Positions 1 to 47,332 of a stretch of DNA of 64,000 nucleotides are shown piece after piece (positions within the stretch are counted from its first letter, which is position 1; every line of letters begins with the position of its first letter). Below the pieces are notes generated by a model, which saw only the letters and a program-made list of their open reading frames with translations, did no database searches and had not been told where the DNA came from. Source of the DNA: Sneathiella aquimaris (GTDB lineage Bacteria; Pseudomonadota; Alphaproteobacteria; Sneathiellales; Sneathiellaceae); assembly GCF_026409565.1 (NCBI RefSeq), contig NZ_CP112881.1, forward strand, positions 2,611,501 to 2,675,500. The letters are read 5' to 3'. Position numbers and translations under genes: made by a program.

Positions 1-1324
1 ATTCACCAGCCCCGCCAGACCCTTCATGAAGGGAATATTCTTCGAACAAAACAGGGTAATATTGTTCCATGACTTCAATAGGAGTCGTCTTAGAGATCCC
101 AATGGTCGAGCAGCCATTCGATAGACCGTCACCGCCCTGATAGCCACCATAACCGCCTCCTGAAATGACGTACATGACATAGGCTTTATCCCGTTCAGGA
201 TCATAACCGCCAACAGCCAGATTGCCTGATGTGCCCGCTGGCGCGGCAAATAATAGTTCCGGCATAACATCAACAAGCGCGTTAAATACAGCTTCGGCAA
301 TACGCTGGCTTACTTCAGCCGCACAGCCGGAAACCGGTCTTGGATATTTCGCATAGAGGAATGTTCCCTCCGGATCCGTTATTTTTAACGGCTCAAAGGT
401 ACCTGCATTAATCGGAACTTCTGGAAAAATATGCTTTATTGCCAAATAGATAGAAGACTTTGTTGTCGCAATAACTGAATTCATCGGACCCATGCAAGGG
501 TCACTGGACCCGGACATATCAAAATGAAGCTCGCCCCCTTTGGATGTAACCTTCATGTCAATTTTCAGGGGCTCATCCACAACACCATCAGAATCCACAT
601 AAGCGACCCCATGATAGTCGCCATCTGGAATATCCGCGATTTTCGAGCGCATCTGTTCTGATGCACGCGCCTTCAGTTCCTTGATTGACTGGCTGACAAC
701 ATCTTCGCCATAACGATCCAGCAGATCTGTAAGGCGCTGCTCTCCAATTGATAGAGCCGCGGCCTGTGCCTTGATATCACCAATTCTTTGATCTGCTATT
801 CGAATATTCGACAGAATAATCGACAGAATTTCCTCATCCAGCACACCTTCTTTAAACAGTTTAACGGGCGGCAGACGCAAGCCTTCCTGTTCAACCTCAG
901 TGGCATTTGCCGAAAAGCCTCCTGGAACTGAGCCCCCCAGATCAGGCCAGTGCCCTGTATTTGCCAGCCAGGACCACAGTTTTCCTTTATAGAAGAAGGG
1001 CCGAACAAATTTAACATCCATAAGATGCGTGCCGCCCAAATAGGGATCATTTACAATAAAAATGTCCCCAGGCTTTACATCTTTCGCGCGCTCAATCACT
1101 GCTTGCGTCGAAAACTGCATTGTCCCGACAAAGATGGGAAGGCCCAACTCACCCTGGGCAATCAACTCCCCCGTATCCGCAGCATAAATCCCGTCTGAAC
1201 GGTCGAGTGCTTCTGAAATCACCGGACTGAAAGCCGACCTGACAAATGCCAGATCCATTTCGTTGCAAACCTGAATAAGGCCGTTTTGAATCACGGCCAG
1301 CGTAATTGGATCAAGTTCTTTCAT
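1..1324 (-). CDS. hyuB: HyuB-type hydantoinase/oxoprolinase beta subunit, C-terminus beyond window
   Basis: Reading the minus strand from ATG at 1324 gives an open frame of about 441 residues to the window edge with no stop. It begins MKELDPITLAVIQNGL and contains the family-typical stretches SPVISEALDRSDGIYA, IFIVNDPYLGGTHL and GGYGGYQGGDGLSNGCS. It belongs to the hydantoinase B / 5-oxoprolinase family, which works with HyuA in ATP-dependent hydrolysis of cyclic amides. The start lies 1 bp after the hyuA stop codon, so the pair is translationally coupled. It is the last visible gene of the seven-gene operon. The substrate cannot be read from sequence; context suggests a reduced N-heterocyclic ring. 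Roughly 100 C-terminal residues are probably missing. Confidence 0.93.
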   Translation of the reverse strand, partial: MKELDPITLAVIQNGLIQVCNEMDLAFVRSAFSPVISEALDRSDGIYAADTGELIAQGELGLPIFVGTMQFSTQAVIERAKDVKPGDIFIVNDPYLGGTHLMDVKFVRPFFYKGKLWSWLANTGHWPDLGGSVPGGFSANATEVEQEGLRLPPVKLFKEGVLDEEILSIILSNIRIADQRIGDIKAQAAALSIGEQRLTDLLDRYGEDVVSQSIKELKARASEQMRSKIADIPDGDYHGVAYVDSDGVVDEPLKIDMKVTSKGGELHFDMSGSSDPCMGPMNSVIATTKSSIYLAIKHIFPEVPINAGTFEPLKITDPEGTFLYAKYPRPVSGCAAEVSQRIAEAVFNALVDVMPELLFAAPAGTSGNLAVGGYDPERDKAYVMYVISGGGYGGYQGGDGLSNGCSTIGISKTTPIEVMEQYYPVLFEEYSLHEGSGGAGE

Positions 1325-1325
1325 C

Positions 1326-3359
1326 TTACACCTCCACAATCAGGTTGCCGATAGGATCTGCCGTTACCTTGCAACCGGGCTCCACAATAATTGTGGTATC
1401 CAATTGCTCAATGATTGCGGGTCCCGCAAAGTCAAGCCGGCTTGGCAATGCATCCCTTTGATAAACCGGTGTGTCGAACAACGTGCCGTCAAACATCACA
1501 GGACGCCGTGTTCTTTCAGCCTCCTCCAGGGTTTTCTTTTGATTGCGACCGATCAAGACAGCAAGGTCAAGGCTTTCCCGACGACCAATAACCGCCGTAT
1601 GTAAATTCACCAGGACGGCCTTGATCTCCGGTAACTCCACCGCAAAGCGCGCCCAGTATACTTCATCAAAGCGCTTTTGGAGCTCTTCGAGAGTCACATC
1701 AGGCCCGCTGATTTCGACACTGAGCATATGGCTCTGTCCTTGGAATTGCATATCGGCGGTAAAAAGAAACACCAATTCCTCGGTTTTAACGCGGTCCCGC
1801 TCTATCATTTTTTTACCGTCTTCAATTTGCTGACGGATGATTTCCTGCACCTGATCTATATCAAGAGATGCAAGCGGCGTATTCACAGTGTTTACAAAAT
1901 CATGACGCAAGTCAGACACGACACACCCCAGTGCATTCGTGATGCCTGGCCGGGCGGGCATGACCACCCGCGGAATAGAAAGCTCTTTTGCAAGGGCAAC
2001 ACCATGCAATGGTCCCGCACCACCAAATGCAAACAAGGCAAAGTCACGTGGATCATGCCCCCGCGATAGACTGACCATGCGAATAGCGCCTGCCATTTTG
2101 TTATTGGCGACTTGAAGAATGGCCGTGGCCACCTCTTCCGCATTCATATTGAAATGCACACCAATTTCACTGACAAAAAGATCTTTAACTTCCTGAAGAG
2201 AAACCGGACTATCAACTGACAGGAGTTTCTCTGCGTCCAGACGCCCAAGAACCAGATTTGCATCTGTGATGGTGGGGCGTCGCCCGCCTCGACCGTAACA
2301 GATCGGGCCGGGTGTTGCGCCTGCGCTTTCCGGGCCTACCTGAAGCATTCCTGCCGCATTGACAAACGCAATCGAACCACCGCCAGCACCGATCGTATGA
2401 ACATCCACCATGGGTACGTGGATCGGCATACCATATTCCAGATCAAGCTCAGCCGTCACTTGCGGCACCCCATCCTGAACCAGACCAACATCAGAACTGG
2501 TCCCGCCCATATCATAGGTGATCACTTTATCAATACCCGCTGCCCGGCAGGTTGCCGCGGCAGCCATAACACCGGAGGCCGGACCGGACATCACCGTATT
2601 GACAGCGCTCTCAGCCACAATCCGCGAAGAAACACTTCCCCCGTTCCCTTGCATGACAAGCAGATCATGGGCAAAGCCCTGATTGGTCAATTCATCCTGA
2701 AGACGATTGATATACCGATCCAGAACCGGACGGATTGCCCCATTGATCGCCGCGGTCGTACCGCGTTCATATTCTCGATATTCGGATAATATCTCATGAC
2801 CCGCCGTCACAAACCGATTAGGCCACATCTCACGGGCAATTTCCAACGCCCGCGCTTCATGCGATCGGTTTTTATAGGAATGTAGAAAGTGAAGAACAAG
2901 GCTTTCCACATCCTGATCAATCAATTGCTGGATCGCCGTACGCAAGGCCGCTTCATCGAGCGGAATAACAACCTGACCATCCGCGTCAATCCGCTCAGGA
3001 ACCTCAAGACGGTATTCGCGGGAAATCAAGGGTTTAAACTGTCCCTTGAGCCCATAAGGCTGCGGACGGGTTCGACGTCCCAGTTCCAAAACATCGCGAA
3101 AGCCTTTGGTGGTGATCAGGCCAACCTTGGCGATCTTCCGCTCCAACAAAGCATTGGTTGTTGTCGTTGTCCCATGATTGATTGCAAAGACTTCGGAAAG
3201 CTTTGTACCAACATTTTCAATGGCGTTAATGACACCAAATGCCTGATTATCCAGTGTGGTTGGCACCTTTGTGACGGAAACTTCCCGTGTTTCCGTATCT
3301 ACGGAAATCAAGTCAGTGAAGGTACCACCAACATCCACCCCAATTACTCTGCCTGTCAT
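1326..3359 (-). CDS. hyuA: HyuA-type hydantoinase/oxoprolinase alpha subunit (ATP-binding)
   Basis: 677 residues, full length for HyuA. The N-terminus carries an ASKHA-type phosphate loop (GVDVGGTFTDLISVD, residues 7-21). The second half of the fold shows TYDMGGTSSDVGLV and HTIGAGGGSIA. This family (N-methylhydantoinase A, oxoprolinase, acetone carboxylase beta) phosphorylates a cyclic or carbonyl substrate with ATP before hydrolysis. No gamma or alpha carboxylase subunit is present, so a carboxylase role is unlikely. The gene follows the DUF1185 gene by 31 bp and precedes hyuB by 1 bp. Assigned as the ring-opening step of the operon by inference. Confidence 0.93.
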   Translation of the reverse strand: MTGRVIGVDVGGTFTDLISVDTETREVSVTKVPTTLDNQAFGVINAIENVGTKLSEVFAINHGTTTTTNALLERKIAKVGLITTKGFRDVLELGRRTRPQPYGLKGQFKPLISREYRLEVPERIDADGQVVIPLDEAALRTAIQQLIDQDVESLVLHFLHSYKNRSHEARALEIAREMWPNRFVTAGHEILSEYREYERGTTAAINGAIRPVLDRYINRLQDELTNQGFAHDLLVMQGNGGSVSSRIVAESAVNTVMSGPASGVMAAAATCRAAGIDKVITYDMGGTSSDVGLVQDGVPQVTAELDLEYGMPIHVPMVDVHTIGAGGGSIAFVNAAGMLQVGPESAGATPGPICYGRGGRRPTITDANLVLGRLDAEKLLSVDSPVSLQEVKDLFVSEIGVHFNMNAEEVATAILQVANNKMAGAIRMVSLSRGHDPRDFALFAFGGAGPLHGVALAKELSIPRVVMPARPGITNALGCVVSDLRHDFVNTVNTPLASLDIDQVQEIIRQQIEDGKKMIERDRVKTEELVFLFTADMQFQGQSHMLSVEISGPDVTLEELQKRFDEVYWARFAVELPEIKAVLVNLHTAVIGRRESLDLAVLIGRNQKKTLEEAERTRRPVMFDGTLFDTPVYQRDALPSRLDFAGPAIIEQLDTTIIVEPGCKVTADPIGNLIVEV

Positions 3360-3390
3360 ATGAAAATCCGTTATCGTTGATTTTTATTAA

Positions 3391-3978
3391 TTATCGAAGG
3401 CCGTCATTGGCGGAGATGTCATCAACCGTCAAACCGCCTAACCGTGCATGTGGACGGCCGCCTGTTGTCATGACCAGGGCAAAAACAATTTCTCCGCGCC
3501 GTGGACTATCGGGAAGGCCAACTTCCATTGCATCGAAATGGCTGCGAACGTAGGAAGCATCTTTATGGGTGATGGGTATTTCCATCCGTGCGCCCACACC
3601 TGCGACCTTTTTGGATGATGGAACAATGGCATATGCCTGACCAAGGGCTTCACGCATGGCGTAACCGCCGGCGACATGCCAGCAGGCACCATGTTCCATT
3701 TCGCCGTCTTCACCAACAATAGCACCTTTGCCGTAACTACAGATTTTCTCCGGATCACCGCCCAGCGCGTTTATCAGCTGCTTCGCAACCTTAAGTCCCA
3801 ATGGTTTCAGCGCTTCCATGAAGGGAGTGATATCCTCAACATATTTGCCCGCGTAAGGGTTATCAACAACCGCAATGATGGATCCTCGCAAAATGGGGTC
3901 CTCAAGAACCGGCCCGCCTTCATGGTAGACTTCTTCGATTTGTGTGGAAATTTTCCGCACTTTAACAAGATCTGTCAT
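3391..3978 (-). CDS. Amino acid synthesis family protein (DUF1185)
   Basis: 195 residues matching the DUF1185/AA_synth family, a small single-domain family of unknown reaction despite its name. Recognisable segments are HEGGPVLEDPILRGSIIAVV near the N-terminus, YGKGAIVGEDGEMEHGACWH in the middle and GGRPHARLGGLTVDDI at the C-terminus. Conserved His and Glu residues in the EHGA segment could be catalytic, but that is a guess. Its start overlaps the end of the UPF0280 gene by 4 bp (ATGA). Its place between the reductase/UPF0280 genes and HyuAB suggests that it processes an intermediate between ring reduction and ATP-dependent ring opening. Confidence 0.85.
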   Translation of the reverse strand: MTDLVKVRKISTQIEEVYHEGGPVLEDPILRGSIIAVVDNPYAGKYVEDITPFMEALKPLGLKVAKQLINALGGDPEKICSYGKGAIVGEDGEMEHGACWHVAGGYAMREALGQAYAIVPSSKKVAGVGARMEIPITHKDASYVRSHFDAMEVGLPDSPRRGEIVFALVMTTGGRPHARLGGLTVDDISANDGLR

Positions 3979-4844
3979 GCTATTTTCCTTACTTGAATTT
4001 TTTCATCTGATAACAGGCTACAGCTCTGCCCTTGCAACGCAAAATAAGCAGACTGAATGAGCCCAGCCTCCCTCATATTTTTTGCAACGCGCATCCCTTG
4101 GGCAAGCGCATTTTTCTTTTCCACTTCCGTCAGCGGTCCAACGTCGGTTGTCACCATCATATCGCCAAGATCCGTATCGTCTCGAACGTCAAAAGCGGGC
4201 TTTTGCATAACAGCAGGGCTTTTTACAAAAACATGACCCGCAATGACCGTGGCCGCCACATCCGCTGTCGCCGCACAATTTGCCAACACTGTCACAGCAT
4301 CAGCGATCCCCGGAGACAATGATCGACCTCGCCAGCCTGAAGTTGCTACGCCGCCAATCCCGTCCTGAGCCGAGATGGTAATTTTCGCATCAATCGAGGG
4401 GGCATCCTGATTATTGACAATCCCGCTTGTAAAAACAGAGCCCCTCCCCAAAAACAAAGCGATATCACCACCGTTATTCACATACAGTTTTTCCAGTCGG
4501 CGCCCCTTGAGCATGGCCGTTTTAACGTGATCAGCAACGGCTCCGGCAACCGCCGCCATTGCGGTAACAAAGTAATCATCTGAAAATTGACGGGCGGCAA
4601 TCCATAAAGTTTGAGAAAGACCGTTCATTGCGGGCGCAATCTGTCCTGAAACGGGCCGTTTCAGAACACTTAAATCCTCAACAAGTGTCGAAAGAATACT
4701 CGAAAAGGCGACCGCTCCCTGTTTATAGGCTGCCTCAATTTCCTCCCGTTTGCCAAAGGCTTCTGCGACAATGTCAATTGGGCCGTGCTGAAGATGCAAT
4801 CTTCGCCCGTCTACCATTAGCCTGACTGTCGCCTGACCGGTCAT
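3975..4844 (-). CDS. UPF0280 family protein with ApbE-like fold signatures
   Basis: 289 residues, matching UPF0280 (COG2122). Segments resembling ApbE flavin transferases are visible: NNGGDIALF at 123-131, an ATSG at 167-170, and ADAVTVLANCAATADVAAT at 181-199, where ApbE proteins carry their metal/FAD-binding and C-terminal motifs. The function of UPF0280 is not established. Because it lies 3 bp after the hydroxynicotinate-reductase-like gene, I infer it may mature that enzyme, for example by covalent flavin attachment, or act on a pathway intermediate. It overlaps the DUF1185 gene by 4 bp. Confidence 0.85.
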   Translation of the reverse strand: MTGQATVRLMVDGRRLHLQHGPIDIVAEAFGKREEIEAAYKQGAVAFSSILSTLVEDLSVLKRPVSGQIAPAMNGLSQTLWIAARQFSDDYFVTAMAAVAGAVADHVKTAMLKGRRLEKLYVNNGGDIALFLGRGSVFTSGIVNNQDAPSIDAKITISAQDGIGGVATSGWRGRSLSPGIADAVTVLANCAATADVAATVIAGHVFVKSPAVMQKPAFDVRDDTDLGDMMVTTDVGPLTEVEKKNALAQGMRVAKNMREAGLIQSAYFALQGQSCSLLSDEKIQVRKIA

Positions 4845-4847
4845 TTT

Positions 4848-6275
4848 TCAGTTTCCTGCAATTTTCACCAACCCGTCGCGGGTCAGCACATCTGAGATCG
4901 GAATGATACTGTCCTTATGGCCACCCAACGCCTCGAAATCTTCTCGCGACATTGAAAATTCAATTGGCGCAACCAAGGCCGGGGTCGGCACATATCCAAA
5001 CGAATTTTCAGGCATTGCCATCACATCAACAATGACTGTAATCCCGCCACCCGGCCAAATATAAGCCGGTGCGCCCCCACAGGTAACACGCGTCAAAGCC
5101 TCTTTCACCGACCGGGTCAATCGCACTGGATTTTCAGTGACCCCCGCACGCAAAGACCCACCTGCACCTGCCATGAACAGCACGGTGCACAAAGCAGGTT
5201 CACAATTTTCGGCAATCCGATCAACAACGAGTTTTATTTCATCCGGCATCGAGGCCGGAACCGGTTTCAGTTCCTCATCCAAAACGAAATATGCGCTATC
5301 CTGACCGGTTGTGGAAACCATCAGTAATGTCATGCCCGGACGGGCCTTTTTGGGATCGACTTTGTCAATAATATCCAGTGGATTGGTGATATCCGTTCCG
5401 CCCCATCCGGCGCCATGTTCGGCTACCTGAAAATACCGACCCGGCGTTGAACGTCTTCCCCGCACTTTTATCCCTGAAACAGGCATCTCTAGAAATTGTC
5501 CAGCCTGATGTTCGGTAAGGACGCCTGTAATATGATCATCGACAACGATGACCTCGTCCACTTTTCCATGCCATTGCGGCGCAAATATACCAATGGTCGC
5601 GGAGCCGCACCCGACACGCATCCGTTCTTCTTCATCCCCATCAATGATGGGCGGCTTCCCGGCCTGAACAGTTATTTTAGCGCCGCCCTCGACTTCGAGA
5701 TCAACAGCCTGTTTGTTGCAAAGCGCCAATAACGTATCACAAGTCACTCGTCCTTCTTTTTTGGACCCGCCAGTTAAATGACGGACGCCGCCGAGTGACA
5801 GCATCTGGCTGCCATATTCAGCCGTGGTAACATGGCCAACCTGCTCTCCATCGGCATATACAGCCGCCGTTTCTGGTCCAACATAACGGTCCGTATCGAT
5901 CTTTACTTTGACACCGCAATAGCTGAAAACACCTTCAGAAACCACTGTAACCGTGTCCACACCATCCGCTGTTGCGCCAACAATAAAGGGTGCAGGTTTA
6001 TAATCCGGATAGGTCGTTCCTGAACCGACACCCGTAACAAATGTATGCCCTTTCGGAACAAGATCGCCGTTCCACTGGCCACTGGTTTCAGTAAAAGGGA
6101 CCTGTTTTTCAGCATTTTCAAGAACGACCAACGGGTCGACACGGGTAAGAACACCGTCCACATTGGCATATCGATCACAGGCGCCGGAACGCCCCGTCCG
6201 AATTCGGCAAAGCACAGGACAGGCATCACATCGAATTAACCCATCATCTTTTGCTGCTGTTTTTGCATCACTCAT
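4848..6275 (-). CDS. 6-hydroxynicotinate reductase-like iron-sulfur enzyme
   Basis: 475 residues, matching the family annotated as 6-hydroxynicotinate reductase. In anaerobic nicotinate fermenters that enzyme uses reduced ferredoxin to reduce 6-hydroxynicotinate to its tetrahydro-6-oxo form. The N-terminus carries four cysteines (C16, C19, C23, C33: CDACPVLC then SGAC), a likely Fe-S site. The rest is a long conserved domain with many Gly-rich turns (FVTGVGSGTTYPDYK, LFMAGAGGSLRAGVTENP). The start overlaps the molybdenum hydroxylase stop by 4 bp. True substrate unknown; a reductase for a hydroxylated pyridine or pyrimidine ring is the natural reading. Confidence 0.85.
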   Translation of the reverse strand: MSDAKTAAKDDGLIRCDACPVLCRIRTGRSGACDRYANVDGVLTRVDPLVVLENAEKQVPFTETSGQWNGDLVPKGHTFVTGVGSGTTYPDYKPAPFIVGATADGVDTVTVVSEGVFSYCGVKVKIDTDRYVGPETAAVYADGEQVGHVTTAEYGSQMLSLGGVRHLTGGSKKEGRVTCDTLLALCNKQAVDLEVEGGAKITVQAGKPPIIDGDEEERMRVGCGSATIGIFAPQWHGKVDEVIVVDDHITGVLTEHQAGQFLEMPVSGIKVRGRRSTPGRYFQVAEHGAGWGGTDITNPLDIIDKVDPKKARPGMTLLMVSTTGQDSAYFVLDEELKPVPASMPDEIKLVVDRIAENCEPALCTVLFMAGAGGSLRAGVTENPVRLTRSVKEALTRVTCGGAPAYIWPGGGITVIVDVMAMPENSFGYVPTPALVAPIEFSMSREDFEALGGHKDSIIPISDVLTRDGLVKIAGN

Positions 6276-9010
6276 TGTGCGGCCTCCTTCTCGTTAAGGG
6301 CTGCCTTTAACCGATGGGGAAGAAGCGGCGCCTCAGTGACCCGCACTCCCGTTGCATGACGCACCGCGCCAAAAATAGCAGGCGCTGTTGGAACCAGTCC
6401 GGGTTCACCCACGCCCTTGGCCCCAAAAGGACCCAATGGTTCGGCATCTTCCACAATCAGTATTTCCATATCGGGCATATCCCCGAATGTCGGGATTAGA
6501 TAATCATGCAGGTTTTCGGTCACACCCGGTACGAACTCTTCCATCAAGGCAAGGCCCAGCCCCTGTGCAATCCCTCCGTGGATCTGACCCTCAACCAATT
6601 GTGGATTGATGGCCTGCCCCACATCATGGGCGGCAATAATTTTAATTACCTTTGTCGTTCCCAATTGTGTATCAACCTCAACAAGGGCGATCTGAGCTGC
6701 AAACCCGTAGGTCGCATACGGCACACCCTGCCCGTTTTCATCAAGCGGTGACGTCGGTGGATCAAAATTACCGGACCCAAAGAACACATTACCCTTCTTG
6801 ATTTCGGGAAGCGCTGTGAGATCAACCTCATGTTTCGCATTTTTATCGGTGATCGTGAGAATAGAGCCCTCTATTGCAAAGATGGCATCCTCACCGGCGT
6901 TCACGTGACGCAAGATCTGTTGCCGCAACTCAAGACCCGCGAGTTCCGAAGCTTTCCCAGAGACGAATGTTTGACGTGAGGCAGAGGTTTTACCCGCATC
7001 TTCCGTTAAATCGCTGTCTCCCATGATATAATGGAAATCAGAAACCGGAAGCCCGGCCGCATCGGCACAGATCTGCGGCATAATCGTATTCGAGCCCTGC
7101 CCAATATCAACGGCACCGTTATAAAGTGTAATTTTACCGTCTTTATTGATACCCACTTCCATCGTTGACGGATTGGAAAGCGATGTATTACCAATGCCGT
7201 ACCACATGGCACCGATCCCCACGCCCCGTCGCAAAACACCATCACTTTTTTCATTAAAAGCACGCGCAAGCGCGTTCATTTCGCCCCAGCCAGGTTTCAG
7301 TTCTTCCAGACAGGGCGCCATACCCGCACTGGCTTGCAAAACCTGACCGGTTGCCGTGGCCTCTCCAACCCGAATTGCATTTTTTAATCGGATTTCCAGC
7401 CGATCCATTCCAAGCTGTTCCGCCAAATCATCCATCATTGTTTCATGGGCAATAGCGGCTTGCGGAACGCCGAAGCCCCTAAACGCACCTGCTGGCGGTG
7501 CATTGGTAAACAGTCCGCGGCCCGTAATATGGACATTAGGAACAAAATAAGGACCGCTTCCGTGAACGGGAACCCGCCCGGCAACCGTAGGTCCCCAAGA
7601 TGCATATGCGCCAGTATCAAAGTCCGCAGTCATTTCCGCAACAACGAGTTTACCGTCCTTGTCCGCAGCAAAACGGCTTCTGACCTCCGACGGGTGACGT
7701 TTGGTGCTCGCCGCCATACTTTCCGGTCGCTCATAAACATAGGCAACAGGGCGATCATATTTCATGGCCGCGACAGCAAGAATGGGCTGTATGGACACAT
7801 CCAGCTTACCCCCGAAACCACCGCCGACAGCAGTTGGAATAACCCGGACCCGCTCTTTTTCAACTTGCAGAACGTTCGCAATCTCATCCAGATCGATATG
7901 GACGGCCTGTGTGGTTACCGTTACTTCAACCCGGTCCCCAACGCGTTGCGCCCAACCTGCCTCAGGTTCAATATAGGCATGTTCAACAAACCGTGTTTGA
8001 AAAGACCCTTCCGTGACGGCTGCCGCCTCGTTCAATCCCTGCTCAATGGATCCTTTCGCCACATGACCGGAAATCAGAACATTCTCTGGCTTATCTTCAT
8101 GCAGTTGCGCGGCGTTTTTTGACCGTGCTGCATCAAGTCCAATCACTGGCTCCTGCAACAGAAATTTTATCGGTAGATCATCCAGTCCTATTGACTGAAC
8201 CACATCTTTAGTACCGACAACAGCAACAACAGCATCGCCGCGATACCGAACAACACCGTCGGTTAAAACTGGCTGATCCTTACCCACTGGATAAATACCA
8301 AACCGGTTAAACGGGATATCCTTATAGGTCAGTATATCGTGAAGCCCGTTCCACGCATCAATAACCGATGACATATCACCAATCTCGACACTGGCCGATG
8401 GATAGGGTGAACGCAGAATCCTGACCCAGAACGCATTTTCTGGAATATTATCCGCCCCATATTTTTCAAGGCCGTTCAACTTTTCTTCAGCGTCCAGTTT
8501 CGCAATAGACGCACCAACCGCCTGACCGGCTTCTGGCTCAAGCGTCGAGTGCTCGCCCGCTGCGTCCATGACCGCATCGACAATTTTCTGATACCCTGTA
8601 CAACGACACAAAACCCCTCCCAACGCGTCTTCAACAGCGTCCCGGCTCGGCGCGTCATTTTCCGCCAACAAGCTACTTGCCGCCATCAGCATCCCCGGCG
8701 AACAAATACCGCATTGTGCTGCACCGTGGCGACTAAAGGCCTGCTGCAACTTGTTGAGAGAACCGGCCTGCGCCAACCCTTCAACTGTTGTTACAGATTT
8801 GCCTTCAGCCTGTATAACCGGCGTGAGGCAGGAACAGACCTGTTCCCCATCAAGGGTCACCGTACAAGCCCCGCAATCCCCGGCATTACAGCCTACTTTT
8901 GTGCCCGTTAGGCCCAATTTGTCCCGTAAAACCTCTGACAGGCGGGTAACGGGCTGCGTTTCAACCGATACTGTCTTTCCATTTACATTAAGTTCTATCG
9001 ATCTTGTCAT
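6272..9010 (-). CDS. Molybdenum hydroxylase, fused 2Fe-2S and Mo-binding subunits
   Basis: 912 residues from the ATG at 9010, whose ATGA overlaps the upstream stop; an in-frame start at 9025 is possible but less likely. The N-terminal ~155 residues are the two [2Fe-2S] domains of the xanthine dehydrogenase family (C41, C46, C49, C61 and C100, C103, C135, C137). Residues ~165-912 are the aldehyde oxidase/xanthine dehydrogenase large subunit, with GGGFGGKLD, a PPAGAFRGFGVPQ pterin motif, GQGSNTIMPQ and the catalytic-Glu segment GVGEPGLVPTAPA. Together with the FAD subunit it would hydroxylate an aromatic N-heterocycle using water. The small-large fusion with a separate FAD gene is less common than three separate subunits. 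Confidence 0.92.
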   Translation of the reverse strand: MTRSIELNVNGKTVSVETQPVTRLSEVLRDKLGLTGTKVGCNAGDCGACTVTLDGEQVCSCLTPVIQAEGKSVTTVEGLAQAGSLNKLQQAFSRHGAAQCGICSPGMLMAASSLLAENDAPSRDAVEDALGGVLCRCTGYQKIVDAVMDAAGEHSTLEPEAGQAVGASIAKLDAEEKLNGLEKYGADNIPENAFWVRILRSPYPSASVEIGDMSSVIDAWNGLHDILTYKDIPFNRFGIYPVGKDQPVLTDGVVRYRGDAVVAVVGTKDVVQSIGLDDLPIKFLLQEPVIGLDAARSKNAAQLHEDKPENVLISGHVAKGSIEQGLNEAAAVTEGSFQTRFVEHAYIEPEAGWAQRVGDRVEVTVTTQAVHIDLDEIANVLQVEKERVRVIPTAVGGGFGGKLDVSIQPILAVAAMKYDRPVAYVYERPESMAASTKRHPSEVRSRFAADKDGKLVVAEMTADFDTGAYASWGPTVAGRVPVHGSGPYFVPNVHITGRGLFTNAPPAGAFRGFGVPQAAIAHETMMDDLAEQLGMDRLEIRLKNAIRVGEATATGQVLQASAGMAPCLEELKPGWGEMNALARAFNEKSDGVLRRGVGIGAMWYGIGNTSLSNPSTMEVGINKDGKITLYNGAVDIGQGSNTIMPQICADAAGLPVSDFHYIMGDSDLTEDAGKTSASRQTFVSGKASELAGLELRQQILRHVNAGEDAIFAIEGSILTITDKNAKHEVDLTALPEIKKGNVFFGSGNFDPPTSPLDENGQGVPYATYGFAAQIALVEVDTQLGTTKVIKIIAAHDVGQAINPQLVEGQIHGGIAQGLGLALMEEFVPGVTENLHDYLIPTFGDMPDMEILIVEDAEPLGPFGAKGVGEPGLVPTAPAIFGAVRHATGVRVTEAPLLPHRLKAALNEKEAAQ

Positions 9011-9852
9011 GATGCTGTACCCCAACTGGAAACCATACGGCGAATGAGCGTTCTAGCCGCATCTTTTCTATAAACCGCCGTTGCACGGACATCATCAATC
9101 GGGTTGAGAGATGAAAAATGAGCGTCCTGTATATTTCTCGTAAGGGTGCTGTTTATTTGCTGACCAACAAGGATGTCTTCCAGTTCGGTCAATCGGACGG
9201 CCACTTCCGAGCAGGCCCCAACAGATAAACGACAATGCGTAATCGTGCCCGAGGCATCCCATTCGACCGTTCCTGCGACCATCGCCAGTGAAATCACCAG
9301 ATATTTCCGAGACCCAAGCTTCAAAAAAGAGCCCAGACTGTTCGCCGCCTGACGGACCGGAATATGTATTGCTTTCAAAATTTCTGTGGGCTGCAATGCC
9401 GTTTTTCGATTTCCCAGAACAAATTCGGATATTGACAACATACGGCTTCCTTCAGGCGAAAGGACCTCGACCGCGGCATCAAGACTTAGAAGAACGGGAA
9501 CGCCGTCAGCAGCAGGGGACGCATTGCATAGATTACCACCGATGGTCCCTGAATTTTGGATCTGACGCCCACCAACTTCTTTTGCTGCAAGCTTTAAACC
9601 ATCAAAGACAGGCGGCAGGTCAGCATTAACTATATCAGTCCAGCAAGTAGCTGCGCCGATGACCCAGTGATGATCAGTTTTTTCTATTCCGCGTAACTCT
9701 GAAATGGCACTAATGTCCAGAATATCGTCATCCAGCTTTCGTCCCACTTTCGCTGGATAATAATCAGTTCCACCGGCAAGAACCGTCAAATGACGACTTG
9801 GAAGCAGCGCCATTAGGTCAGACAGGTTATCCGGCCGAAAATATTCTCCCAT
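9007..9852 (-). CDS. Molybdenum hydroxylase FAD-binding subunit
   Basis: 281 residues of the FAD-binding family of molybdopterin dehydrogenases (CoxM/XdhB type). The two FAD loops are visible: TVLAGGTDYYP near residues 24-34 and NSGTIGGNLCNASPAAD near 103-119. A C-terminal CO-dehydrogenase-flavoprotein-like domain follows. It passes electrons from the Fe-S/Mo subunit to an acceptor. It is the first gene of the seven-gene operon; its start is 21 bp downstream of a 12-bp palindrome and a sigma70-like promoter. Confidence 0.92.
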   Translation of the reverse strand: MGEYFRPDNLSDLMALLPSRHLTVLAGGTDYYPAKVGRKLDDDILDISAISELRGIEKTDHHWVIGAATCWTDIVNADLPPVFDGLKLAAKEVGGRQIQNSGTIGGNLCNASPAADGVPVLLSLDAAVEVLSPEGSRMLSISEFVLGNRKTALQPTEILKAIHIPVRQAANSLGSFLKLGSRKYLVISLAMVAGTVEWDASGTITHCRLSVGACSEVAVRLTELEDILVGQQINSTLTRNIQDAHFSSLNPIDDVRATAVYRKDAARTLIRRMVSSWGTAS

Positions 9853-9873
9853 ATTTCTCGGACCTTCTTTTTG

Positions 9874-9885
9874 TATGTATACATA
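9874..9885. promoter_or_regulatory. 12-bp palindromic operator of the heterocycle operon
   Basis: TATGTATACATA is a perfect 12-bp palindrome. It sits just downstream of the putative -10 box on the minus strand and 21 bp before the FAD-subunit ATG, where a repressor would block initiation. The TGTATACA core resembles GntR-family operators. No regulator gene adjoins the operon in this window. Confidence 0.5.
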
Positions 9886-9886
9886 T

Positions 9887-9915
9887 GATAATGAAGTATT
9901 ATTCCACTATGTCAA
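9887..9915 (-). promoter_or_regulatory. Sigma70-like promoter of the heterocycle operon
   Basis: On the minus strand a perfect -35 box TTGACA (9915-9910) is followed after 17 bp by ATTATC (9892-9887), or after 16 bp by CATTAT. It fits a housekeeping promoter driving the FAD-subunit gene and its operon, with the palindrome at 9874-9885 over the start region. Confidence 0.5.
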
Positions 9916-31332: not shown

Positions 31333-31719
31333 AATGTCCAACTACCTGAAATTTATTGTTCCGGCCCAATACTCAAATTTGAGCCATATAATTAGAATGG
31401 GGAGAGAATCTCTCAAAAGGACGTTAAAATCAACAAAATTGAAGGGCCTTTCACAACAAAATTCAAACATAAATTCACAAAATTCTGATATGTCCAAATT
31501 TTCCAGTCACTTTGCAACACGCACTTTATACCTTAAAAAAGGCGTTATATACGGGCAGTCTTTATCCTTACCTTATCGTCATAAGCGTGTTTTGAAGACT
31601 AAATGTCGTATCATGGATAGCGAGAAGCCCTCCAGCGACACACTCTGTTTAATAATTCAAGTCCACGAAGAGGGTATACCCTCTCACCAATGCCAATAAT
31701 CGATCAGTGGAAAAGCCAA
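31333..31719. other. Divergent intergenic region upstream of fhs
   Basis: This 387-bp AT-rich stretch lies between the divergent glutamine-synthetase-like gene and fhs. It contains a perfect 16-bp palindrome at 31669-31684. No convincing gene, tRNA or riboswitch is visible. A short open frame across 31310-31699 has no family resemblance and is probably not a gene. Confidence 0.6.
31669..31684. promoter_or_regulatory. 16-bp perfect palindrome upstream of fhs
   Basis: AGAGGGTATACCCTCT is perfectly self-complementary. It ends 35 bp before the fhs start codon, a typical operator or 5'-UTR position. Which regulator binds, if any, is unknown; the GTATAC core is shared with the palindrome at 9874-9885. 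Confidence 0.5.
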
Positions 31720-33414
31720 ATGACCTCACAGCACAGTAATCCTAAAAGCGATATTGAGATTGCAAACCAAGCCCGCATGAAGCCCGTTTTGGATATAGCA
31801 AAAGAGAGACTGGGCGTTGATGCCCAGAATCTAGAACCATATGGTCATTACAAAGCAAAAATCTCACTGGATTATATAAAAACCTTACAAGACAAACCGG
31901 ATGGCAAGCTGATTCTGGTGACGGCGATGACGCCGACCCCCGCTGGAGAAGGCAAAACAACCACAACTGTGGGGCTGGGAGACGCGCTGAACCGAATTGG
32001 CAAAAACACGATGATTTGTTTACGTGAACCTTCATTAGGACCGTGCTTTGGTATGAAGGGCGGTGCTGCAGGGGGGGGGTACGCGCAGGTCGTTCCGATG
32101 ACAGATATCAACCTGCATTTTACCGGTGATTTCCACGCCATTGGCGTTGCAAACAACCTTTTGGCGGCCATGATCGACAACCATATTTATTGGGGCAATA
32201 CGCTTGAGATTGATGAACGGCGCGTTACCTGGCGGCGTGTCGTGGACATGAACGATCGGGCGCTTCGAAATATCGTGAACAGTCTCGGCGGTGTCGCAAA
32301 TGGCTTTCCCCGTGAAGACCATTTTGATATTACCGTTGCCTCTGAAGTGATGGCGATTTTCTGTCTGGCATCCGATCTGAATGATCTAAAAAACCGCCTT
32401 GGCAACATCATTGTGGGTTATACCCGGACCCGCACGCCTGTGTTTGCCAAGGACCTGAACGCGCATGGTGCCATGACGGCTTTGCTGAAAGATGCGTTTC
32501 AACCCAATCTTGTACAGACACTGGAAAATAATCCGGCGTTCATCCACGGTGGGCCATTTGCCAATATTGCCCATGGATGCAATTCTGTACTCGCGACAAA
32601 AACAGCATTGAAGCTTGCTGATTATGTTGTCACAGAAGCAGGTTTCGGCGCGGATCTTGGTGCAGAAAAATTCCTCGATATCAAATGCAGAAAATCCGGC
32701 CTTCGCCCTGAAGTCGCAGTCATTGTTGCTACGATCCGCGCTTTGAAAATGCACGGCGGTGTCGGTAAAGAGGATCTTGGCAAAGAAAACGTGACGGCCG
32801 TTCGGGATGGCGCAAAGAACCTTATCCGGCATATTGAAAATATGAAGAAATTTAACCTGCCAGTTGTTGTTGCCGTCAATAAATTCTCAGCAGACACAGA
32901 AGCAGAAGTTTCTGCCGTAATTCAGATTTGTGCTGAAGTTGGTGTTGATGCGATCGTCTCGGATCATTGGGGAAATGGCGGAGCAGGCGCAGAAGCGCTG
33001 GCCCATGTGGTTGCCAATAAAATTGACGAAAATTCAAGCGCTCTTAACTTTATCTATGATGATGAAACAACCTTATGGAACAAGGTTAAATCCATTGCGC
33101 AAAACATCTATCGGGCAGATGACATAATGGCCAGCCAGAAAGTGCGCGACCAGTTTGACGATTTGCAAGCACAAGGATTTGGCCATTTTCCTGTTTGCAT
33201 TGCTAAAACCCAATACAGCTTTTCAACGGATCCAACCCTGAAAGGCGCTCCTTCAAATCACTCCGTTCCCATTCGTGAAATCAGGGTAGCAAGTGGCGCC
33301 GAATTTGTCGTTGTGGTTTGCGGTGATATCATGACCATGCCGGGCTTGCCCCGTGTCCCCGCAGCGGACAAAATTGATGTCGACGAAAATGGTCAAATCG
33401 TGGGTCTTTTTTAG
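31720..33414 (+). CDS. fhs: Formate--tetrahydrofolate ligase
   Basis: 564 residues from ATG at 31720 ([18 protein letters not shown]), preferred over 31690 because GGAAA precedes it; both are in frame. The ATP-binding loop [20 protein letters not shown] and [24 protein letters not shown] are diagnostic. It makes 10-formyl-THF from formate, ATP and THF in the cytoplasm. Formate could come from the histidine pathway (HutG) in this window or from C1 oxidation. The link with the corrinoid/folate island points to a shared tetrahydrofolate pool. A perfect palindrome lies just upstream. Confidence 0.97.
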
Positions 33415-33471
33415 CGCTTAAAAACAACAATTTAAGTTGCTGGAAAATCAGAGTTGAAGTAGCGTTTTTGT

Positions 33472-34473
33472 ATGAGTGACCTTGACCACACCTTCATTGA
33501 CCGACATCCGTTGGATGGGGCCGCAGAAGCCGAATATAAAATCGGTTTCTGCCTGCTGCCTGAATTTTCATCGATCGCCTTTATTTCGGCAATCGAGCCC
33601 TTGCGGTTGGCCAATCGGGTGCTGGGCCGCAAAGTCTATGATTGGACCTGCTATTCAGAAGATGGCGAACCCGTTGTCAGCAGTGCAGGCTTGTCCTTTC
33701 CTGTCGCCGGCAACCTTGCCGAGATGCCTCACCAGAATATCCTTTTTGTTTGTGGTGGCTTGAACATTAAAACCTATACCTCAACGGGCGTCGTTGCATC
33801 GTTACGCAAAGCTGCGTCTCGCGGCACCGCCATCGGGGCCATCTGCACCGCAACCTATATATTGGCCAAAGCTGGCATGCTGTCGGGCTACCGCAGCACA
33901 ATCCATTGGGAGAACACGTCCGGTATCCGCGAAGAATTCCCTAATCTGGATATAACGACCGAGTTATTCGAAATTGATCGAAACCGATATACTTGTGCGG
34001 GCGGAACAGCGTCTCTGGATATGATGCTAAGCCTCGTATCCGTACATACCAGCCATGAAACCGCCCTCGCAATTGCAGAGCAATTAATTCATCACAGAAT
34101 TCGGGACGGCCATGAACGCCAGCGTATGGAATTGAGGGCCCGCTTAGGAATTTCTCACCCCAAATTGCTGGCAGCTATTTCCTGTATGGAAGAAAATCTG
34201 GAAGAACCACTAAGCTGTAGCGATCTGGCGTCAAATGTTAACCTTTCAACGCGACAGCTAGAGAGATTATTTCAAAAATATCTGCACCGGTCGCCAACCC
34301 GATATTATCTCGGGCTTCGTCTGGATCGGGCTCGGTATCTCCTCACCCAAACCAGCTTACCAATCATTGAAGTCGCACTTGCCTGCGGCTTTGTCTCGGC
34401 CTCACATTTTTCCAAATGCCACCGGGAACATTTTGGCCATACCCCAAGCGAAGAACGTAAATTACCGCATTAA
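33472..34473 (+). CDS. GlxA/GbdR-like AraC family regulator
   Basis: 333 residues. A DJ-1/PfpI-like amidotransferase domain (residues ~20-190, with FVCGG and GAICTATYILAKAGMLSG) is joined to a C-terminal AraC DNA-binding domain (~225-333, CSDLASNVNLSTRQLERLFQKY and ALACGFVSASHFSKCHREHFG). This architecture is shared with GbdR and CdhR, which sense glycine betaine/dimethylglycine and carnitine derivatives. It faces the demethylation operon and overlaps its last gene by 4 bp, so it is the likely activator of that island. The effector is inferred. Confidence 0.88.
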   Translation: MSDLDHTFIDRHPLDGAAEAEYKIGFCLLPEFSSIAFISAIEPLRLANRVLGRKVYDWTCYSEDGEPVVSSAGLSFPVAGNLAEMPHQNILFVCGGLNIKTYTSTGVVASLRKAASRGTAIGAICTATYILAKAGMLSGYRSTIHWENTSGIREEFPNLDITTELFEIDRNRYTCAGGTASLDMMLSLVSVHTSHETALAIAEQLIHHRIRDGHERQRMELRARLGISHPKLLAAISCMEENLEEPLSCSDLASNVNLSTRQLERLFQKYLHRSPTRYYLGLRLDRARYLLTQTSLPIIEVALACGFVSASHFSKCHREHFGHTPSEERKLPH

Positions 34474-36512
34474 TCGCTTGCTGTTCTTCGCCGTCTGGTC
34501 CGTCGCCTGTTTTTATCAGCGCCATTCGATGGCTCTGTCTTTTCCGGCAGGCTGACGACTTTAGCCAGGTTGGTATAAGGTTCAGATTTGTGCGGCAAGG
34601 CCATCGCATCTACAAAATATTTCTGGAAATCAGGTTCTACCGCTGTTTCAACTTTTTCCACCTTGCTGATCAGTTCTTCTGCTTGAGAACGGGCCTGTTT
34701 ATTCAACAGCGCGATACGGGCCCCAATGCCAGCCGCATTGCCAATTGCCGACACTTCCGCGAGATCACAATCGGGGACCATCCCCAATATCATTGCATAC
34801 TTCGTATCGATATGACTACCAAAGGCACCGGTCAGTAAAACACGTTCCACCTCACTGACACCAAAACGGTCCATTAACAATTTGGCCCCGGCAAATAATG
34901 CGGCCTTAGCCAATTGAATGGCCCGCACATCCGTTTGATAAACTCTGATCGGATTGATCGGATCTTCGCGTAAAACATAGGCAAATGTACGCCCTTCCGC
35001 AATAATCCACTGAGACTGATCAACCAGATCTCCTTTAATCACACCATCTTCCGAAAGAATGCCAGCGAGGAACATTTCAGCCAATGCTTCAATGATACCG
35101 GATCCACAAATCCCTGTAACACCAAATCCATCGATAGCGTCTTCAAAACCCTCTTCGTTTGACCAAAGATCGCAACCGATGACTTTATACCGGGCCTGTT
35201 TTGTAACCAGGTCAATTCGGACCCTTTCTATCGCCCCCGCCGCAGCCCTCTGCCCACAGGCGATCTGCGCGCCTTCAAATGCCGGACCTGTCGGTGAGGA
35301 TGCAGCGAGCAGGCGACTGTTATTTCCCAAAACCAGCTCTGCATTTGTTCCGATATCAACGATCAGAGTTACCTTTTCCTGCAGATGAGGGGCTTCTGAC
35401 AGGATAACCGCTGTTGTATCCGCGCCGACATGCCCTGCAATACAGGGTAGGAAATAAACCCGACCATCCGGATTGCTGCACAGATCTATTTCTGTTGCCC
35501 ACAAGATCATCCCGGAATTTGAAGCCAGTGCAAAAGGAGCCCCGCCCAGCTCTGTTGGGTCAATTCCCAACAAAAGATGATGCATAATCGGATTTCCCAC
35601 GAACACTGCGCTCAAGACATTCATGGGGTCAATTTTTGTGTCTTCACAAAGTTCGGTCAGTAATTGATTAATGCCCGTTCGTATGGCGGATGTCAGAACT
35701 TTCTCGCCGCCTTCGTTCATCATGACATAAGAAACCCGGCTCATCAGGTCTTCGCCATACCGAATTTGCGGGTTCATCATCCCGTTAGATCCCATCACCT
35801 GCCCGGTCGACAGATTACAAAGATGCATGGCAATTGTAGTTGACCCCACATCCACCGCAATACCATATGCATCACTGTGAAAACCTGGCCAAAGAGCCAT
35901 AATCCGTGTATCCCGATGAACGGCGACGGTAACCGCCCACTCCCCTTTTCGGAGTTCTTTCTGAAGCTTTTGAAGAATTCTGAGATCGCATTCCAGATCC
36001 CTCAGGCCCCATTGTTGTTCCAGTGCAAGAGCCAGACGTTCAAAATCCCCGGTCGGATTATGCATGTCAGGCTCCTGAACAGTCACATAATGCAACCGAA
36101 CGGCAGGATCAATTTCAATGACCCGGTCTTCTGCCGCCTTTACAATGATCTGTTTATGCACCTGGCTGGACTGGGGCACATCAATGACTGTGTCCCCTTG
36201 CAACGTGACATGGCAACTCAGGCGCCGCCCGTCGCGAAGGCCTCTTCTTTCATCATATTTTTTTTCGTTTGCGGCAAGCGAACTGAGTGAATTCGAGGAT
36301 GATTTCACACCAAACTTTGGAAAATCCCCGACGACAGGTTCAATTTGACAGCGGCCACAAATCCCTCTGCCACCACAAACACTATCGATATCGACCCCCA
36401 GATCCCGGGCTGCTTTAAGCAAGGATGTGCCCTTTGGAAACCGACCCCGAATACCAGAGGGGGTAAAAACGACAAGATAATCTTCTGGATTGGTGTTAAT
36501 AATATCAGGCAT
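34470..36512 (-). CDS. ASKHA/DUF4445 corrinoid-activating ferredoxin (RACE protein)
   Basis: 680 residues from ATG at 36512, preceded by GGAGG; the frame runs to 36659, but that part belongs to the preceding gene. A 2Fe-2S ferredoxin domain (SVCGGRGICGRCQIEP plus a later Cys in RLSCHV) is followed by the ASKHA domain with GIAVDVGSTTIAMHL, LIVDIGTNAELVLG and LTGAFGSH. RACE proteins use ATP to reduce inactive Co(II) corrinoid back to Co(I). The C-terminus ends in an Arg-rich tail (seven Arg in residues 669-676). The gene overlaps the methyl-THF methyltransferase gene by 8 bp and the convergent regulator gene by 4 bp. Confidence 0.9.
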   Translation of the reverse strand: MPDIINTNPEDYLVVFTPSGIRGRFPKGTSLLKAARDLGVDIDSVCGGRGICGRCQIEPVVGDFPKFGVKSSSNSLSSLAANEKKYDERRGLRDGRRLSCHVTLQGDTVIDVPQSSQVHKQIIVKAAEDRVIEIDPAVRLHYVTVQEPDMHNPTGDFERLALALEQQWGLRDLECDLRILQKLQKELRKGEWAVTVAVHRDTRIMALWPGFHSDAYGIAVDVGSTTIAMHLCNLSTGQVMGSNGMMNPQIRYGEDLMSRVSYVMMNEGGEKVLTSAIRTGINQLLTELCEDTKIDPMNVLSAVFVGNPIMHHLLLGIDPTELGGAPFALASNSGMILWATEIDLCSNPDGRVYFLPCIAGHVGADTTAVILSEAPHLQEKVTLIVDIGTNAELVLGNNSRLLAASSPTGPAFEGAQIACGQRAAAGAIERVRIDLVTKQARYKVIGCDLWSNEEGFEDAIDGFGVTGICGSGIIEALAEMFLAGILSEDGVIKGDLVDQSQWIIAEGRTFAYVLREDPINPIRVYQTDVRAIQLAKAALFAGAKLLMDRFGVSEVERVLLTGAFGSHIDTKYAMILGMVPDCDLAEVSAIGNAAGIGARIALLNKQARSQAEELISKVEKVETAVEPDFQKYFVDAMALPHKSEPYTNLAKVVSLPEKTEPSNGADKNRRRTRRRRTASD

Positions 36513-37410
36513 TCCGCCGCCGCCTCCGTCCTCCGCGACGGCCTGCTCCTTCTTCTCCTTCCGCCGCGGGTTCCCGATATTTCTTAATCCACTGAGCACA
36601 GTTAGGGTCAACCCCCATAACCGCATTTGCGCCCATGACGGCAGCCATTTCAGGTTCATGCAATGGATTTGTAATCGCGGATGTCATCCCGGCACCAATG
36701 GCCATGGACAGAAACGATGCGTTCAAACCATGCCGGTTTGGAAGCCCGAAGCTGAAATTTGAAGCCCCGCATGTTGTGTTGACTTTCAGCTCTTCGCGCA
36801 ATCGGCGGATAAGCCTTAGAACCTGTTTGCCCGCATCATTGATTGCCCCAACCGGCATCACAAGGGGATCGACCACAACATCGGCCGGTGAAATACCATA
36901 GTCCTGCGCCCGCTGAACGATTTTCTTTGCCACCTCAAACCGCACATCCGGATCTTCCGAAATGCCGGTTTCATCATTTGAAATGGCAACGACGGCTGCA
37001 CCGTATTTTTTTACCAAGGGCAGAACCGTCTCAAGACGCTCTTCTTCGCCAGTGACCGAATTTACTAGAGCCTTGCCTTGATATACCCCCAGACCAGACT
37101 CCAGTGCGGCAACAATGGACGAGTCAATTGATAGCGGAACATCTGTTAGAGATTGCACCAATTGCACGACTTCAGCCAGCATACGCGGCTCATCCGCCAA
37201 TGGAATACCCGCATTCACGTCCAGCATTTGCGCCCCAGCCGCTACCTGCGCCAAAGTATCCGCTTCCACTCGGCTATAGTCACCAGCCATCATTTCAGCA
37301 GACAACAATTTTCGTCCCGTGGGATTTATTCTTTCCCCAATTATAACAAAAGGTCGGTCAAATCCTATTACGACCTCTTTGGTGGCGGAAGAAAGAACTG
37401 TATCTGTCAT
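36505..37410 (-). CDS. Methyltetrahydrofolate:corrinoid methyltransferase
   Basis: 301 residues of the pterin-binding (MtrH/AcsE/MetH-type) family: FVIIGERINPTGRK at about residues 21-34, MLDVNAGIP and SIDSSIVAALE. It exchanges the methyl group between methyl-corrinoid protein and THF, so methyl groups taken from a quaternary amine enter the folate pool. The C-terminus carries a striking Arg/Gly tail (seven Arg between 291 and 299). The coding sequence of this tail doubles as the ribosome site of the next gene, which it overlaps by 8 bp. Confidence 0.92.
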   Translation of the reverse strand: MTDTVLSSATKEVVIGFDRPFVIIGERINPTGRKLLSAEMMAGDYSRVEADTLAQVAAGAQMLDVNAGIPLADEPRMLAEVVQLVQSLTDVPLSIDSSIVAALESGLGVYQGKALVNSVTGEEERLETVLPLVKKYGAAVVAISNDETGISEDPDVRFEVAKKIVQRAQDYGISPADVVVDPLVMPVGAINDAGKQVLRLIRRLREELKVNTTCGASNFSFGLPNRHGLNASFLSMAIGAGMTSAITNPLHEPEMAAVMGANAVMGVDPNCAQWIKKYREPAAEGEEGAGRRGGRRRRRNA

Positions 37411-37480
37411 TTTCGAAACCCTTCGAACGGGAGTTGGTTATATTCTTACTAGACGATCAAATTACCCCAAGAACTAGCCT

Positions 37481-38581: not shown

Positions 38582-39101
38582 TTGCCTGCCTTTCTTTTTC
38601 CTTGGCCGCTTCTGATGTGACCCGCAGCCAGGATGACGTCTCCCTCAGCGAATGATCAACTGGCTTTTGAACGTTCAAAATGGTGTTTCCCGCCCGCATA
38701 TTCTGGCTCCCCTTCCAGGCCTGAACCCATACGCAGGGCATGTCTGGTTCCACCTCACAATTCCCGTTCGCCCGCACACCTCCGCAAGGTCCATTTCTTA
38801 GGCTCTTCGGGCAATTCATAGGGCAAGACATACCGGTTTCACTCAACACACATTGTCCGCACATCCGACAATCAAACAAAAAGCCCTTCACAAGCTTTTC
38901 AGCCGATTTTACCGGTTTTTCAACCCGTTTATATCCTAGTAACTGCCAGACGGGATGAAGTTTTAAAAACACGTGGGCAAGCGCTTTGTAGAGGCTCTCT
39001 AACATCTTGGAGTGACGAACAGACCATAAACGCACTGTATAGAATGAACTGGATCGCGTAACCGGACTTCGCCGGGCGGGTTGATAAGCAGCTTTCGGCA
39101 T
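38562..39101 (-). CDS. Cysteine-rich MTHFR C-terminal domain protein (MTHFR_C)
   Basis: 179 residues from ATG at 39101 (MPKAAYQPARRSP), with a strong AAGGAGG site; the ORF also opens slightly upstream. It matches the MTHFR_C family found fused or adjacent to MetF-like proteins in corrinoid/folate clusters. Eight cysteines fall at 78, 81, 84, 93, 97, 106, 115 and 123 (CRMCGQC ... CPMNC ... PCGG ... NC ... PC), a likely zinc or Fe-S binding module. I infer an electron-transfer or structural partner of the neighbouring MetF. Its start shares one base with the preceding stop (TAATG). Confidence 0.85.
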   Translation of the reverse strand: MPKAAYQPARRSPVTRSSSFYTVRLWSVRHSKMLESLYKALAHVFLKLHPVWQLLGYKRVEKPVKSAEKLVKGFLFDCRMCGQCVLSETGMSCPMNCPKSLRNGPCGGVRANGNCEVEPDMPCVWVQAWKGSQNMRAGNTILNVQKPVDHSLRETSSWLRVTSEAAKEKERQANGLSDA

Positions 39102-40711: not shown

Positions 40712-40735
40712 ATACTTTCTCCCAAACCACCGTGA

Positions 40736-47179: not shown

Positions 47180-47332
47180 TAAACAATAGCCCTTACAGTG
47201 ACTATACAATCACGACTTAAACGTACGAACTGTATTTTATTATAAATACAAACACCTAAATAGAATAGTCTCAATATTAAGATTTGTTAATAAAAAGACT
47301 TTTTATCGATGTTACAACTGACTTGGATTTCC

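Follow-up and report, generated by a model that had tools for sequence, protein, structure and literature searches.

A probable reductive-type nicotinate operon in Sneathiella aquimaris, with exchangeable first and third steps and a constant partner of 6-hydroxynicotinate reductase

The window analyzed here is a stretch of 64,000 nucleotides from Sneathiella aquimaris (assembly GCF_026409565.1, contig NZ_CP112881.1, genome bases 2611501-2675500; the genome is a single contig of 3.94 Mb), at the left end of which seven densely packed minus-strand genes encode a molybdenum (Mo) hydroxylase, a predicted 6-hydroxynicotinate reductase (Hnr), an UPF0280 protein, a DUF1185 protein and the two subunits of HyuAB. 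Gene calls from open reading frames (ORFs) and from Pfam and NCBIfam scans of the window and its left flank confirm the gene set that a first-pass annotation had described as a tight operon with its own promoter and operator, and promoter-like and operator-like sites are present upstream (Table 1). At five of the six junctions the genes overlap or lie 3 bases apart; the gap between the DUF1185 gene and hyuA measures 31 bases. The complete hyuB gene occupies L003:9098-10840, that is, C1:2611097-2612839 of the genome. The ORF of the fused subunit of the Mo hydroxylase opens at a TTG at 9025 (6272-9025), and the ATG at 9010 was chosen as the start.

Table 1. Genes and putative regulatory sites of the operon (window coordinates)
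Feature	Position	Strand	Evidence or remark
Promoter-like TTGACA-16-CATTAT	9888..9915	-	reads 9915-9888
Operator-like palindrome TATGTATACATA, 12 bases, directly downstream of the -10 element	9874..9885	.	
FAD (flavin adenine dinucleotide) subunit of Mo hydroxylase, xanthine dehydrogenase (XDH) family	9007..9852	-	PF00941 3e-40, PF03450 5e-16
Fused 2x[2Fe-2S]/molybdopterin subunit, predicted nicotinate 6-hydroxylase	6272..9010	-	PF02738, PF20256, PF01799, PF00111
6-hydroxynicotinate reductase (Hnr)	4848..6275	-	63-68% identity to 26 plasmid records
UPF0280/COG2122-type protein, ApbE fold, Hnr partner	3975..4844	-	NCBIfam NF003322 313 bits, cut-off 290
DUF1185 (PF06684, 'AA_synth'), type A	3391..3978	-	PF06684 9e-70
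HyuA, predicted ATP-dependent lactamase subunit	1326..3359	-	PF01968, PF05378
HyuB, lactamase subunit	1..1339, runs past the left edge of the window	-	PF02538 5e-162

Hnr is so named because of its identity to the plasmid records, which extends over 95-98% of the length, 17 of the 26 records being annotated as 6-hydroxynicotinate reductase; no model in Pfam or NCBIfam gives this protein a name. Seven cysteines are invariant in all 62 rows of the Hnr alignment. The fold search with the Hnr model (predicted local distance difference test score, pLDDT, 77.6) gave no match at E <= 0.001 and was uninformative, a PDB sequence search with the Hnr profile returned one chance-level match, and no relative was found in viral contigs. 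Hnr relatives are encoded on at least 593 stretches of the genome contigs searched, and the hnr gene is therefore common.

A cluster with hnr, an ABC transporter and two conserved proteins of unknown function has been described in Azorhizobium caulinodans, Bradyrhizobium and Rhodopseudomonas; the route leads from nicotinate through 6-hydroxynicotinate and 1,4,5,6-tetrahydro-6-oxonicotinate (THON) to glutarate, the cluster covers the first three nicotinate steps, and strain SG-6C, a carrier of the cluster, uses nicotinate and 6-hydroxynicotinate each as sole carbon source (PMC3511419). THON and 2-formylglutarate are the intermediates named for the enamidase route in a second paper (PMC9304392). 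The operon in the window is probably a variant of this known bacterial nicotinate (vitamin B3) operon, in which the ring is oxidized, reduced and opened, and we assign a probability of roughly 0.78 to its encoding nicotinate catabolism by the reductive (THON) route. Hydroxylation, reductive dearomatization and ring opening, as proposed in the first-pass annotation, remain the best reading, and the published THON route fits them. The heterocycle, left unnamed there, is now very probably nicotinate, and the statement that no fully described pathway has such a gene set gives way to the THON route already in print, Azorhizobium included. The surprise at such chemistry in an apparently aerobic host has a precedent in print, given that A. 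caulinodans is called aerobic (PMC3511419); the route itself is called anaerobic in both Eubacterium barkeri and Azorhizobium (PMC9304392).

The gene set, its co-conservation, the mutual replacement of enzymes and the predicted UPF0280 fold are what the analysis shows; the substrate, every reaction and what UPF0280 and DUF1185 do are inferred. In the proposed pathway, the XDH-like Mo hydroxylase would convert nicotinate to 6-hydroxynicotinate (step 1), which Hnr would reduce to THON using low-potential electrons. HyuAB would replace the enamidase at step 3 and open the THON lactam, probably with consumption of ATP, to 2-(aminomethylene)glutarate, and this product would hydrolyze to 2-formylglutarate and ammonia, leading onward to glutarate. 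UPF0280 would assist Hnr, its most likely role being that of a maturation factor for handling or attaching the flavin of the reductase, and DUF1185 would work at the ring-opening stage or later, possibly with the enamine as its substrate.

The Mo hydroxylase carries its cofactor motifs (in the fused subunit, whose ORF translates to 917 residues, they lie at positions 46, 105, 514 and 871), is not of the NicB type and is predicted to be a nicotinate hydroxylase; the fused subunit is 51% identical to an enzyme from an Hnr cluster of Sulfitobacter. The best NicB matches in the S. aquimaris genome are partial, with 29-43% identity. A point against the nicotinate assignment is that the Mo hydroxylase might attack a different position or a different ring. 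More broadly, the same chemistry might be directed at another heterocycle, such as a substituted nicotinate or another pyridine carboxylate, with the XDH-type and NicB-type clusters differing in substrate. The weak match of the window enzyme to NicB (43% over 147 residues) and the Rieske oxygenase genes that adjoin some XDH-type clusters are compatible with this alternative, but we consider it improbable, given that the window Hnr is 63-71% identical to Hnr from NicB-type loci, that L008 and L010, neighbors on the Hnr tree (support 92), have different types of step 1 enzyme, and that within the genus the operon has a nicotinamidase-like gene linked to it.

To survey the genomic contexts of Hnr, we annotated 99 loci, namely 80 from genome contigs (the best 80 of at least 593, weighted toward close relatives), 8 from plasmids, the locus in the window and 10 from relatives, with score limits of > 900 bits for HyuA or HyuB, > 250 for the amidohydrolase, > 800 for the XDH-type and > 1000 for the NicB-type enzymes. 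Step 1 is represented by the XDH type in 74 loci and by the NicB type in 18, with neither seen in 7; for step 3, the score limits yield HyuAB in 38 loci, the amidohydrolase in 27, neither in 34 and both in none. All four combinations of the two steps were found. A cultured carrier of the XDH-type and HyuAB combination is Sagittula stellata E-37 (L010). On a quick tree of 98 Hnr sequences (one locus with a broken hnr frame was omitted, and 28 of the 95 inner branches are open), the best topology implies at least 4 switches at step 1 and at least 7 at step 3, as expected of enzymes with the same job. What is new here, along with the shared occurrence of UPF0280 and Hnr and the division of DUF1185 into two types described below, is that steps 1 and 3 are each filled, where an enzyme was seen, by one of two enzyme types and, within the score limits, never by both. 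When the co-conservation test that the first-pass annotation had set as a possible refutation was applied, Hnr and UPF0280 proved to be a co-conserved core, while some loci lack the Mo enzyme, HyuAB or DUF1185 or have a replacement for them. In this reading, an operon for an unknown heterocycle becomes a concrete nicotinate pathway with exchangeable modules. A FNR-like gene, a possible source of electrons for Hnr, is present in 20 of the 99 loci, including 15 of the 18 with NicB; neither a FNR nor a MarR gene was found in the window operon.

The operon lacks an enamidase-type amidohydrolase, the best match in the genome being partial (32%), and HyuAB is present instead. Several observations weigh against the proposed pathway: the 34 loci without any opener within the stretch read, 15 of which belong to the 69 loci covered for 8 kb or more on each side; the amidohydrolase locus L011, which holds a distant HyuA at its edge (40% identity, 430 bits, below the limit of 900); and the derivation of the locus hidden Markov models from the very same loci. 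Alternatively, HyuAB might have another lactam or imide as its substrate, and an unlinked enzyme might open the ring, a view with which the 34 loci showing neither enzyme in the stretch read are compatible, as are at least 3 loci where HyuAB is encoded past the transporter or on the opposite strand. Considering, however, that within the score limits, and apart from the distant HyuA of one locus, the two openers never occur together and that they replace each other at least 7 times on the best Hnr tree, this explanation appears unlikely. We found no literature joining hydantoinase with 6-hydroxynicotinate or nicotinic acid in a search whose coverage leaves out most subscription journals, so that absence from print is not shown.

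UPF0280 is a constant companion of Hnr. Of 60 relatives, 13 carry both genes, and of 239 genomes across the phylum, 18 do (the S. aquimaris genome is counted in each set); in neither set was one gene found alone (Fisher 2e-27 with relatedness ignored; counted by genus, 8 of 127). Among the 99 Hnr loci, UPF0280 lies within 250 bases of Hnr in 91, is more distant in 7 and is absent in 1. This last locus, L057, where the roughly 10 kb to each side of Hnr hold no UPF0280 gene, counts against the partnership. In the other direction, plasmid NZ_CP044550 carries UPF0280 without Hnr. On a Hydrogenophaga plasmid (L012), UPF0280 is encoded at 4 places without Hnr, with a Rieske oxygenase gene and copies of IS1071 between them.

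The AlphaFold model of UPF0280 (pLDDT 94.8) has the UPF0280 structure 2o34 as its best fold match; all matches at ranks 1-40 belong to the UPF0280 or ApbE families, ApbE-family chains occupying ranks 3-40 (E 2e-5 to 1e-2). A profile comparison with hhalign gave a 96% match; it used 20 ApbE sequences from this genome and its relatives, one of 21 loci having yielded no frame. UPF0280 shares with the ApbE/Ftp/FmnB flavin mononucleotide transferases its predicted fold and several motifs (GGD, ATSG and AD..AT). It differs from them in its low identity (10-16%), in TM-scores to ApbE of 0.31-0.50, in the lack of a counterpart of the catalytic histidine, which falls in a gap of the profile alignment, and in the absence of the target motif D-x-x-[ST]-G-A-[ST] from all 62 Hnr rows; the last three differences weigh against a flavin-transferase role. 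The motif is taken from PMC12052999, and the aligned ApbE histidine is, in our own reading, its His257. A different histidine (residue 17) is retained in 58 of 64 UPF0280 rows. PF02424 (ApbE) gave no match above its cut-off for the window UPF0280 (P0002). On the supporting side, PF02424 proteins are lacking in 4 of the 12 Hnr-bearing genomes among 45 searched, one of the four being 86% complete.

As a testable guess, UPF0280 could be a flavin-handling maturase for Hnr. Alternatively, UPF0280 might be no flavin transferase and might instead help Hnr with sulfur or Fe-S chemistry, along the lines put forward for COG2122 in homocysteine synthesis. In Desulfovibrio, COG2122 is required for homocysteine synthesis together with DUF39 and NIL/ferredoxin proteins, a persulfide role has been proposed by others, and its homology seems not to reach the flavin site of ApbE (PMC5764234). 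Together with the missing histidine counterpart, the missing target motif and the seven invariant cysteines of Hnr, this makes the sulfur role a genuine possibility, albeit one opposed by the ApbE-like fold and motifs. Of the two roles, we give flavin handling a slight preference because of this fold and because the Hnr of E. barkeri reportedly contains a covalent flavin. The observation in the first-pass annotation that UPF0280 and DUF1185 have no known reaction still holds, notwithstanding the Desulfovibrio requirement. A search for literature on UPF0280 by name, or on ApbE with 6-hydroxynicotinate, found none within a coverage that leaves out most subscription journals.

DUF1185 was detected in 34 of the 239 genomes, in 17 of the 18 with Hnr and 17 of the 221 without it, and hence is linked to Hnr but is also used elsewhere. 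The 93 DUF1185 sequences from the clusters show a deep split into types A and B, with type B present in all 27 amidohydrolase loci compared to 3 of the 38 HyuAB loci (Fisher 3e-15, relatedness ignored), which suggests a role of DUF1185 near ring opening. Given that 13 of these 27 loci come from Bradyrhizobium and that a tree-aware test finds few independent pairs (4 on supported branches, of which 3-4 go the same way and 0 the other; p 0.125 at best), we treat this link as a lead only. Against a role in ring opening, DUF1185 was unseen in 11 of the 38 HyuAB loci within the stretch read. Solved relatives of DUF1185 have a chorismate-mutase-like fold, and their authors link them to amino-acid metabolism (PMC2954203).

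In the boldest reading, UPF0280 might be a cytosolic maturase of the ApbE superfamily dedicated to Hnr that places flavin at a non-ApbE site, and DUF1185 a ring-opening enamine hydrolase or tautomerase, with type A working with HyuAB and type B with the enamidase; taken as a whole, this scheme is speculative and rather unlikely to hold. If true, it would provide the first reactions for two widespread families of unknown function. The Hnr system offers a tractable test for UPF0280/COG2122, an unsolved family.

Promoter-like matches number 3 in 400 bases compared to 0.7 expected, so that the promoter evidence is weak when taken alone. The palindrome occurs at a single place in the genome, and no exact copy was found among the other 150 loci. 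In the upstream regions of 6 congeneric operons, read by eye, CTTGAC is present in 5 and a GTRYRC-centered site near the start codon, related to the palindrome, in all 6.

To the left of the operon follow, in sequence, convergent branched-chain-type ABC genes and genes for an UrtA-like binding protein, a nicotinamidase-like hydrolase, phosphonoacetate hydrolase and phosphonoacetaldehyde dehydrogenase. The ABC genes adjoin the operon in 6 of 6 congeneric loci, and the binding protein and nicotinamidase-like genes are nearby in all 5 loci read that far; in genome G024, which belongs to the same family, the hydrolase (69%) is found past the ABC genes that accompany the Hnr cluster. The nicotinamidase-like protein (P0007, L003:3589-4317) matches PncA (PDB 3pl1) with E 8e-6 and reaches 29.5 bits with the NCBIfam nicotinamidase model, under its cut-off of 174; presumably, it resembles plant nicotinamidases. 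At L003:722-4317, the nicotinamidase-like gene is followed by the phosphonoacetaldehyde dehydrogenase and phosphonoacetate hydrolase genes, an arrangement shared by 4 of 5 congeneric loci; in genome G020 (L104), the nicotinamidase-like gene was detected and the phosphonate genes were not, and in genome G009 the nicotinamidase-like frame is short and both phosphonate genes are broken. As aldehyde dehydrogenase and phosphodiesterase genes, the two had been candidates for glutarate-semialdehyde steps and were rejected, given that their NCBIfam matches over cut-off are phosphonoacetaldehyde dehydrogenase and phosphonoacetate hydrolase and that they went undetected in one of the 5 loci. Within the genus the operon is accessory: Hnr was found in 9 of 24 genomes, with several of those 24 incomplete.

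Elsewhere among the surveyed loci, a Mo hydroxylase subunit and Hnr share one open frame in Bosea sp. Leaf344 (L058:6944-11464), either a natural fusion or the result of a lost stop codon. Genes for the alpha subunit of an aromatic ring-hydroxylating (Rieske) dioxygenase adjoin three Hnr clusters (L004:16055-17122, L010:15523-16593 and L011:15795-16865). Farther along the window, a corrinoid-dependent one-carbon cluster (31690-47209) encodes a MttB-family methyltransferase, a MtgC-like corrinoid protein, a RACo reductive activator, a pterin methyltransferase, MTHFR with DUF5981, DUF1638, formate-tetrahydrofolate ligase and a GbdR-like regulator, several of the matches being under cut-offs; this cluster is perhaps involved in betaine demethylation.

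Among known systems, E. barkeri nicotinate fermentation, which uses Ndh with its cofactors, Hnr and an enamidase, shares with the proposed pathway Hnr and the THON intermediate. The two differ in the ring opener, which is an enamidase in E. barkeri (PMC9304392) and would be HyuAB in the window; the Hnr proteins of SG-6C and E. barkeri share 42% identity (PMC3511419). With regard to HyuAB itself, the closest comparison is with caprolactamase CapAB and OplBA, which we take to belong to the HyuAB family: the caprolactamase alpha and beta subunits are the top NCBIfam matches of HyuA (513 bits) and HyuB (349 bits), respectively, both far below the equivalog cut-offs of 1000. OplBA is a valerolactam hydrolase (PMC11879879).

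Also among the closest known systems is the nicotinate cluster of A. caulinodans, Bradyrhizobium and SG-6C, with which the operon shares Hnr, the ABC transporter, two conserved proteins of unknown function and an alphaproteobacterial host (PMC3511419). Of 15 Bradyrhizobium loci, 13 hold NicB, Hnr, UPF0280, DUF1185, ABC genes, MarR, the amidohydrolase and FNR, the other 2 being shorter stretches, and from this gene content UPF0280 and DUF1185 would appear to be the two proteins in question; in the window, both are encoded inside the operon and the ABC genes are convergent. The differences lie in step 1, NicB-type there and XDH-type here, and in the ring opener, an amidohydrolase there and HyuAB here. 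The operon is thus a variant of the known reductive nicotinate cluster in which the enzymes predicted for steps 1 and 3 are unrelated to their counterparts or only distantly related, and in which Hnr has a constant partner of predicted ApbE fold.

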